A DNA stretch of 64,000 bases from Candidatus Nanopelagicus hibericus (GTDB lineage Bacteria > Actinomycetota > Actinomycetes > Nanopelagicales > Nanopelagicaceae). Of the stretch, positions 16,680-19,484 are shown in pieces (position 1 is the first letter of the stretch; the number at the start of each line of letters is the position of its first letter). A program made the position numbers and the translations under genes. The DNA lies in NCBI RefSeq assembly GCF_002288005.1, contig NZ_CP016771.1, forward strand, positions 558,001-622,000. The letters run 5' to 3'. A model generated the notes under the pieces. That model saw only the letters and a program-made list of their open reading frames with translations. It ran no database searches and had not been told where the DNA came from.

Positions 16680-17612
16680 ATGAGCGTTTTGGATTTTTCA
16701 ACTAAGATCGGTAGCAAGAGATTTTCTAATCCAATCTTTACCGCCAGTGGATGTGCGAGTTCAGGCCAAGAGTTGGCTCAATTCTTTCCATTAACCGAAC
16801 TTGGTGCGATTGTTACAAAATCTATTATGACTAAACCACGCACCGGTAGAGCAACTCCTCGAATGGCTGAAACCCCCAGCGGCATGCTTAATTCAATTGG
16901 ATTACAAGGGCCTGGTATCCATACTTTTCTTGAGAGGGATATTCCTTGGTTAGTTGAGAATAAAGTAAAAGTAATAGTTTCAATCGCAGGTGAAACTGTT
17001 GATGAGTATGGAGTTCTGGCACGAAGGTTACGAGCGGTGGCAGGTATTAGTGCTGTCGAAGTCAATATTTCCTGCCCAAATGTTGAAAACAGAGGTCAGG
17101 TTTTCGCTTGCCACCCAGAAAGTGCTGTAGCGGTGATAGAAGCGGTTAGAAGAAATATTGGGGGTGAGCTACCAATTGTCGCGAAATTATCGCCAGATGT
17201 CACAGACATCGTTGCAATCGCGGCTTCAGTAATCAATGTGGGTGTAGATGGTTTAGCGCTAATAAATACCTTACTTGGCATGGTGATTGACACAAATACT
17301 ATGAAACCAAAGCTTACGGGAAAGACTGGTGGATTATCTGGACCCGCAATCAGGCCAATTGCAGTGCGTGCGATTTATCAAGTCCACCAAGCCTTTCCCA
17401 ACATTCCAATTGTTGGCATGGGTGGTGTTTCTAGTGGCCGTGATGCATTCGAATTGGTATTGGCTGGCGCAAGCGCAATTTCTATTGGAACAGCTAATTT
17501 TTCCAATCCTTCAGCCGCAATAAACATTAAAAATGAATTATCTGCATTACTGACGGAACGAGGATTTAATGATTTTCGTGATGCTATTGGTTTTGCCCAT
17601 CGAGGAATTTAA
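16680..17612 (+). CDS. pyrD: dihydroorotate dehydrogenase, class 1B catalytic subunit
   Basis: PyrD oxidises dihydroorotate to orotate with FMN. The active-site cysteine lies in VNISCPNVENRG, typical of class 1 enzymes (class 2 uses serine). The FMN phosphate loop GMGGVSSGRDAFE and the segment INTLLGMVIDT support this. ATG 16680 gives the normal N-terminus; the longer frame to 16629 runs into pyrK. The adjacent pyrK makes class 1B the natural assignment. Its stop overlaps the pyrF start (TAATG). Confidence 0.94.
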   Translation: MSVLDFSTKIGSKRFSNPIFTASGCASSGQELAQFFPLTELGAIVTKSIMTKPRTGRATPRMAETPSGMLNSIGLQGPGIHTFLERDIPWLVENKVKVIVSIAGETVDEYGVLARRLRAVAGISAVEVNISCPNVENRGQVFACHPESAVAVIEAVRRNIGGELPIVAKLSPDVTDIVAIAASVINVGVDGLALINTLLGMVIDTNTMKPKLTGKTGGLSGPAIRPIAVRAIYQVHQAFPNIPIVGMGGVSSGRDAFELVLAGASAISIGTANFSNPSAAINIKNELSALLTERGFNDFRDAIGFAHRGI

Positions 17613-18304
17613 TGAAACTGCCAGTAATTCTCGCACTTGACACCAAGGATCTAACTCAAGCTTCAGAGTGGATTGAAGCCAGCATTGATTCAATTGATCA
17701 TTTTAAGATTGGACTAGAGTTCTATTTGAAACATGGAAGAGTCGGAATTGAACAATTAAGGCAAAAGAATGATTTTAATCTTTTTCTTGATTTAAAGTTG
17801 CATGATATCCCCAACACAGTAAAAGGTGCGGTTGAAGCAGTTTCCTCTTTATCTCCAAAATTCTTATCAGTTCATGCCTCCGGCGGCAGTAAAATGATTT
17901 CCGCTGCTAAAGCGGCTCTGCCTAATGGTTCAATAACTGCAATCACAGTTCTAACCTCGTTTTCAGAAGAGGATTTCTCTAGATTAGGAATGGCTGGGAG
18001 TATTTCTGAAACAGCAAAAAATTGGGGGAGCATTAGTCTTGCAGCGGGGGCAACTTCATTAGTTTGCTCACCTTTTGAGGTTTCACAATTGCGGTCAATT
18101 GCTGGTTCTGCCATTTTAATAACTCCTGGTGTACGAGTTGAGGGCGATGATGTGGGGGACCAAGCCCGAGTGATGTCGCCAAAGAGCGCACTTGCTGCCG
18201 GGGCAAATTTTGTTGTGATAGGTCGTTCAATTACTGGTGAATGGGATGGCACGGACAAAAAAATGCGGAAGAAAATTGAACTCATAGCAAAATCTTTGGA
18301 ATGA
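17612..18304 (+). CDS. pyrF: orotidine 5'-phosphate decarboxylase
   Basis: PyrF decarboxylates OMP to UMP. The catalytic D-K-x-x-D motif is clear in LDLKLHDIPNTV near residue 60, with the phosphate-binding VIGRSIT near the end. This compact type I form (230 residues) has the N-terminal ALDTKD, whereas mycobacteria carry the longer type II PyrF. It ends inside the start of the mIHF-Gmk gene (ATGA overlap). Confidence 0.95.
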   Translation: MKLPVILALDTKDLTQASEWIEASIDSIDHFKIGLEFYLKHGRVGIEQLRQKNDFNLFLDLKLHDIPNTVKGAVEAVSSLSPKFLSVHASGGSKMISAAKAALPNGSITAITVLTSFSEEDFSRLGMAGSISETAKNWGSISLAAGATSLVCSPFEVSQLRSIAGSAILITPGVRVEGDDVGDQARVMSPKSALAAGANFVVIGRSITGEWDGTDKKMRKKIELIAKSLE

Positions 18305-19173
18305 CCATGTTACCGCCAAGACTAAGCCGCAGATCCAGACGCAAAGCGGGTGAAGCTGCAGTATCAGCACGACAGGAGCGTGCCAGAGTAAAGGAATTGA
18401 TTACAAAAGGTGAGATTTACTTCTTTGATCTATTCAAAGATGAGCGCAAATCAATTTTACGGATGAAACTTATTGATCTACTGCAATCGGTTCCAGGCAT
18501 CGGCAAGAGTAGAGCGGAGGTAATTTTAGATAGAACTGGAATCTCACATTCACGTAGAATTGGCGGTGTTGGGCATAGACAACTTGAACTACTACGTCAG
18601 GAGTTTTTATTGATCAAGAACTCTCCTAAAAGTGGGCGTCTATTGGTTGTCTCTGGGCCAAGTGGTGTTGGTAAAAGCACCATCACCAATAAATTACGCA
18701 ATGATGATCGATTTTGGATATCGGTTTCAGCAACGACAAGAGAAATTAGATCTGGTGAGCAAAATGGCGTGGATTACCATTTTGTCAGCAATGAGCATTT
18801 TGACCGGATGATTACTAAGAATGAGTTTTTAGAATGGGCTAGTTTTGCTGGTGCTAAATATGGAACTCCTAAGAAAGCTGTTAATGATGCTTTAATGGAT
18901 GGCAAAAATGTGGTTTTGGAAATTGAGCTAAATGGGGCACGTCAAGTGCGAAAAAATTCAAAGAACGCGATATTGGTTTTTATCAAACCTCCCTCATGGG
19001 AGGAGTTAACGGCTAGATTAATCAAAAGAGGGACAGAGTCCGAACAATCAACGCAAGCTCGGTTAGATCGGGCTAAAGAGGAGTTATTAGCCGCCTCTGA
19101 GTTTGATCATGTAGTAATAAACCACCAAGTAGATCAATCTGTGTCGGAACTGGTATCTTTAGCCCTTCGCTAG
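18301..19173 (+). CDS. gmk: fusion protein: actinobacterial integration host factor (mIHF) + guanylate kinase
   Basis: One uninterrupted 290-codon frame encodes two proteins that are separate neighbours (mihF, gmk) in mycobacteria. Residues 3-100 match mIHF: a basic N-terminal helix, LLQSVPGIGKSRAEVIL (helix-hairpin-helix-like), and RRIGGVGHRQLELLRQEF, a DNA-binding tail. Residues 110-290 are guanylate kinase: P-loop SGPSGVGKST, then SATTREIRSGEQNGVDYHFV, EFLEWA and LEIELNGARQV. There is no stop or frameshift between them. An in-frame TTG at 18610 has CAGGAG six bases upstream, so free Gmk might also be made. The kinase converts GMP to GDP; the IHF part would bind DNA. Confidence 0.88.
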   Translation: MTMLPPRLSRRSRRKAGEAAVSARQERARVKELITKGEIYFFDLFKDERKSILRMKLIDLLQSVPGIGKSRAEVILDRTGISHSRRIGGVGHRQLELLRQEFLLIKNSPKSGRLLVVSGPSGVGKSTITNKLRNDDRFWISVSATTREIRSGEQNGVDYHFVSNEHFDRMITKNEFLEWASFAGAKYGTPKKAVNDALMDGKNVVLEIELNGARQVRKNSKNAILVFIKPPSWEELTARLIKRGTESEQSTQARLDRAKEELLAASEFDHVVINHQVDQSVSELVSLALR

Positions 19174-19205: not shown

Positions 19206-19484
19206 ATGAGCAATCAAGCACTAGATGGAATTACTAATCCACCAATCGACGCGTTATTAGATAAAGCTGGATCGAAATATAGCTTGGTACTTTATGCAGC
19301 TAAGCGAGCCCGCCAAATTAATGCATACTATTCACAACTTGGTGAGGGATTATTGGAATATGTGGGGCCACTGGTCGAAACTTATGTGCATGAAAAACCA
19401 TTATCTATTGCGTTAAGAGAAATCAACGATGGCTTGCTTACTATTGAGAATTTAGAACCAAAGCAAACTCCTACAGCTGGCTAA
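19206..19484 (+). CDS. rpoZ: DNA-directed RNA polymerase omega subunit
   Basis: Omega helps fold and stabilise the beta' subunit. The 92-residue protein has the conserved N-terminal block [28 protein letters not shown], where the first part contacts beta', and a short acidic C-terminal tail. An AAGGGG ribosome binding site precedes the ATG. The order gmk-rpoZ-coaBC-metK-priA is the standard actinobacterial one. Confidence 0.95.

Follow-up and report, generated by a model that had tools for sequence, protein, structure and literature searches.

Guanylate kinase (Gmk) converts GMP to GDP. In mycobacteria its gene is a separate neighbour of the gene for mIHF, an essential and very abundant nucleoid protein, and in M. 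tuberculosis the order is mihF-gmk-rpoZ (PMC6155035); the first-pass annotation was accurate on this point, and the two genes were also separate neighbours in many of the actinobacteria compared here. The window analysed, a stretch of 64,000 nucleotides from Candidatus Nanopelagicus hibericus, carries both coding sequences in a single reading frame. The first part of the encoded protein is like the mycobacterial mIHF (Rv1388) and the Streptomyces sIHF (SCO1480) in belonging to the same domain family above the cut-off, in its order before gmk and rpoZ (PMC6155035), and in conserving the basic helix, the HhH-like loop and the RR(I/V/L)xG(L/V)G motif, but it is followed by a C-terminal guanylate kinase. 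The second part is like bacterial Gmk (TIGR03263; M. tuberculosis, PDB 1znw/1s4q) in its full domain, P-loop and GMP-site motifs, and differs from it by the N-terminal mIHF domain. No description of such a fusion was found in the open-access literature searched.

The fused frame and its two domains

The gene lies between pyrF and a downstream series composed of rpoZ, coaBC and metK. Its main features are, in positions of the window:

17612..18304, + strand, pyrF, the upstream neighbour (OMPdecase)
18301..19173, + strand, mihF-gmk fusion ORF of 290 codons, from ATG to TAG, with 0 internal stops
18316..18606, + strand, actinobacterial IHF (mIHF/sIHF) domain, aa 6-102 (NF041260, H2TH_5)
18607..18633, + strand, linker of about 8-9 aa, aa 103-111 (gap between the domain matches)
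18634..19161, + strand, guanylate kinase domain, aa 112-287 (TIGR03263)
18655-18678, + strand, P-loop GPSGVGKS, motif intact
19206..19484, + strand, rpoZ (RNA polymerase omega), the downstream neighbour (RNA_pol_Rpb6)

The claim that a complete mIHF-type domain and a complete Gmk share one frame was borne out, as both matches exceeded the curated cut-offs. The NCBIfam model actino_IHF (NF041260) matched aa 6-102 with 79.5 bits (cut-off 60), and guanyl_kin (TIGR03263) matched aa 112-287 with 230.6 bits (equivalog cut-off 160.45); the Pfam Guanylate_kin score was 176 bits. These Pfam and NCBIfam matches ruled out a chance open reading frame. The type of the NF041260 model, 'equivalog_domain', suggests that its curators had larger proteins in mind as well. 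As for the start, position 18301 is probably 6 bases too early: close relatives have no start codon there and share an ATG equivalent to the one at 18307, which is therefore the likely true start and would give a protein of 288 aa.

The frame itself is secure, since the host genome is a single contig of 1.223 Mb and many relatives possess the same unbroken frame. That two genes had been joined by an error in sequencing or assembly, such as the indel that the first-pass annotation wished to see checked, is refuted: no stop or frameshift separates the domains in many independently assembled genomes, several of them single contigs. The mihF-gmk fusion is real and old. Its product is the sole mIHF and the sole Gmk of the complete genome (one full Gmk match), HU being encoded separately. 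Only one other genomic match to the query was present (G000:C1:672321-672578). It covered the C-terminus of a UvrC-like gene and the beginning of a gene like RapZ (Walker A), with one in-frame TGA between the two, the similarity being a chance resemblance to a HhH plus a P-loop.

The closest solved relatives of the IHF part were sIHF (4itq) and mIHF (6tob). The HhH-like PGIGK loop and the RR arginines are present, and arginines R22, R25, R85 and R86 (sIHF numbering) are kept; DNA binding by this domain is predicted. In the kinase part, the P-loop and GMP-site motifs are there, namely GPSGVGKS (the GxxGxGKS P-loop), SVSATTR, RSGE, DYHF, LEWA and YGT, and GMP kinase activity is likewise predicted. 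Its closest solved relative was the M. tuberculosis Gmk (1znw), with a TM-score of 0.90 of the target for the kinase fold. An acid differs, D being replaced by E in the LEIEL segment, and this replacement is not tied to the fusion because split relatives have it too. The AlphaFold2 model showed two confident domains (pLDDT 92.8) joined by a weaker short linker, aa 101-110 forming the lowest block (pLDDT 71). The relative orientation of the domains was uncertain (pTM 0.71) and was left out of the argument, the input alignment having contained misplaced IHF-only rows; the model was retained owing to its high pLDDT.

Distribution and history of the fusion

Hereafter g1 designates the genus of the window, and g2 and g10 two related genera. 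In a survey of the order, a match was found in 272 of 296 genomes, and most genera had one unbroken frame across both domains. The search for the same two-domain architecture, proposed in the first-pass annotation, thus returned a fused frame in most genera of the family. All 20 g1 genomes with a complete gene were fused, the gene of the 21st being cut by a contig end. Genera g5, g6, g7, g8, g14 and g15 had separate adjacent genes, often overlapping or one in-frame stop apart. The basal genera were split, and so were g8 and g15 although nested among fused genera. Many split relatives had zero to few bases between mihF and gmk.

Class-wide, two genes were found in most genomes, the fused exceptions being family f31 and two genomes of genus g89 in family f29. 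The Gmk of f31 fell, in an incompletely resolved grouping, among sequences of Micrococcales and Actinomycetales, and f31 probably corresponds to Microbacteriaceae. Its fused genomes were larger (2.8-4.3 Mb). Among named records, Candidatus Nanopelagicaceae, related MAGs and Pontimonas carried the fused gene; in Schaalia, Actinomyces, Jonesia and Corynebacterium MAGs the two genes were separate. Actinomyces and Schaalia, where tblastn matches spanned both domains, were rejected as fused on account of stops between the domains. The matches in the records named Sanguibacter keddieii 250_SKED and Xylanimonas cellulosilytica 352_XCEL (L142, L143) were almost the same as in Schaalia odontolytica, and these two records may be misnamed. 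A gmk without a detectable mIHF beside it was observed in several small actinobacteria, namely f29 genera, Rhodoluna and Microbacteriaceae MAGs (L111, L125, L129, L130, L160-L174), in which the mIHF may have been lost, may lie elsewhere or may have diverged beyond the reach of the model.

The fusions of Pontimonas, f31 and f29/g89 have the same domain order in one frame, but their linkers, of 11-24 aa, are longer than the approximately 8 aa observed here, and they do not form one clade with the Nanopelagicaceae fusion. In the tree, the fused Nanopelagicaceae proteins grouped together with support (100/99), and g8 and g15 fell within this group. A single origin of all fusions, g8 and g15 included, was rejected (AU test, p 0.02). 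The fusion thus arose at least twice; its occurrences are in Nanopelagicaceae, in f31 (probable Microbacteriaceae) and in a third lineage. For g8 and g15 the shape of the tree favours fission, while a fused clade without them survives the AU test (p 0.27).

The fused proteins also differ from mIHF and sIHF at one arginine. The third arginine of the RRxR/RRxRGLG motif (R88, sIHF numbering) is common in the family, yet outside the curated NF041260 criteria. It is replaced by G88 here (18562-18564), by G, A, Q or S in 45/45 fused Nanopelagicaceae proteins and by G in the 10 f31/f29 fusions, hence in all fused proteins checked, whereas R was present in 14/18 split outgroup proteins. This loss, common to the independently fused f31/f29, may be a marker of altered DNA binding.

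Signals at the seam and inside the gene

Five further elements were distinguished within the fusion gene:

18553..18561, + strand, codons CGT AGA ATT (R85 R86 I87), among the top synonymous-conservation peaks
18555-18560, + strand, TAGAAT, candidate -10 of an internal promoter, ~50 bases upstream of the seam signal
18598..18603, + strand, CAGGAG, Shine-Dalgarno-like (SD-like) tract at the seam (g1 conservation, synonymous-conservation peak)
18610..18612, + strand, in-frame TTG (Leu104), candidate start of free Gmk (187 aa), with a 6-base spacing from CAGGAG
19147..19170, + strand, gmk 3' element GAACTGGTATCTTTAGCCCTTCGC (synonymous conservation)

The TTG at codon 104 and the CAGGAG six bases before it were found as earlier described. 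The predicted pairing energy at this site (dG -6.9) was stronger than that of the start at 18307 (-3.3). In relatives, the start at the seam was a TTG at the same place or an ATG two codons on. Synonymous codons were shuffled 200 times within each gene, relatedness being ignored, in order to ask whether an in-frame start and an SD-like tract were kept beyond the needs of the protein. In g1, 20/21 genomes combined an in-frame start with a dG of -6 or below (null mean 4.2; 0/200 shuffles), and the mean dG was -6.85 compared to -2.6 in the shuffled genes (0/200). In the 28 g10 genomes the count was 21 (null 6.2) and the mean dG -7.33 versus -3.3 (0/200), while the excess in the 25 g2 genomes concerned the mean dG only (-4.44 versus -1.7; 0/200). 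No excess was detected by this test in g11, g12, f31 and f29, so that the f31 fusion, unlike that of g1, has no seam signal. A longer anti-SD left the result unchanged, and a pyrimidine-rich scramble of the anti-SD gave a similar signal; the data therefore support a purine tract but not an exact pairing with the 16S rRNA. The three strongest synonymous-conservation peaks of g1 were the gmk 3' element, CAG GAG TTT and CGT AGA ATT, in a genus where four-fold sites were different in 63% of pairwise comparisons. The internal TTG start suggested by the first-pass annotation was thus strengthened, short of proof, by seam signals conserved in g1 beyond coding need. The gene probably yields a full-length IHF-Gmk plus a free Gmk.

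The candidate -10 read CGTAGAAT in 19/21 g1 genomes and TAnnnT in 21/21. TAnnnT was found at this place in 24/25 g2 genomes and in part of g10 and g11, but in none of the 8 sequences of g8 and none of the 16 of the outgroup, both of which have split genes. No -35 was recognised for TAGAAT, a promoter scan of the + strand found nothing that fitted the sigma-70 consensus, and the presence of the -10 and of the SD did not co-vary significantly under phylogenetically independent pairs, which were few. It is possible that TAGAAT is the -10 of an internal promoter. At the other end of the gene, the synonymous sites of the gmk 3' element were almost invariant in g1, with peaks also in g2, g10 and g11, and stayed nearly constant from genus to genus, the element reading CTGGTATCTT, CTGGTATCCTT or CTGATAGAATT. 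The segment TGGTATCTT (19151-19159) resembles an extended -10, and it or close variants precede rpoZ across genera. This element is probably the rpoZ promoter, located inside gmk, and its conservation indicates that promoter-like elements in the fusion gene can leave such a trace at synonymous sites.

Origin and possible roles of the fusion

We propose, with somewhat more confidence than doubt, that this genuine fusion, the sole mIHF of the cell, was created by stop loss and that free Gmk is made as well by internal initiation. The gmk start would already have been at or within the end of mihF before the fusion, and the most likely origin would be the loss of the mihF stop codon between two tightly spaced, co-transcribed genes; some split relatives are one in-frame stop short of fusion. 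The full-length protein, translated from the pyr operon transcript, would associate the DNA-binding IHF with the catalytic Gmk through a join of about 9 residues. In g1, g2 and g10, initiation at the seam (in g1, AGGAG followed by TTG 18610) would make free Gmk too, and TAGAAT may feed this initiation site. Free Gmk besides the fusion would allow the enzyme and the nucleoid protein to be supplied in different amounts.

It is conceivable, if on balance not the better reading, that the stop was lost between overlapping genes as a neutral by-product of gene crowding, with no functional effect on either domain. The many relatives with almost no spacing between the genes and the 1.22 Mb genome agree with it; the presence of the fusion in the larger f31 genomes and its long retention do not.

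Rather unlikely is an obligate fusion in which only the full-length IHF-Gmk is made, the seam signals being left over from the former gmk start or having some other role, for instance in RNA structure or translation speed. That g11, g12 and f31 are fused without a seam signal indicates that cells can live with the fused gene and no free Gmk, and the domains model well as one chain. A relic should have decayed, yet the purine tract and the start codon were retained at fast-changing silent sites in g1 (20/21), as well as in g10 and g2, which disfavours the relic reading.

Selection for tethering appears less probable again. Gmk would be held on the nucleoid, local GDP/GTP being coupled to the state of the chromosome, or GMP/GDP would tune DNA binding. 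The repeated origin of the fusion, its retention over most of the family and the key residues kept in both domains speak for it. Against it stand the split forms in the nested g8 and g15, the ease of stop loss in genes that are neighbours anyway, the uncertain orientation of the domains, and the lack of any sign of allostery.

Beyond the proposed stop loss and internal initiation, a bolder and improbable extension is that one essential gene gives a nucleoid-bound IHF-Gmk plus free Gmk through an internal promoter and ribosome-binding site lying within the codons of the DNA-binding domain, by which the bacteria would adjust how much of the enzyme is tethered and how much is free, and couple the state of the nucleoid to GTP supply. 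These tiny, streamlined actinobacteria include abundant freshwater bacteria. With the only copy of mIHF and of Gmk being one protein, and with split relatives at hand, they offer a natural experiment on whether a nucleotide enzyme acts at the nucleoid. The fusion also bears on how one gene could keep two expression levels after merging.
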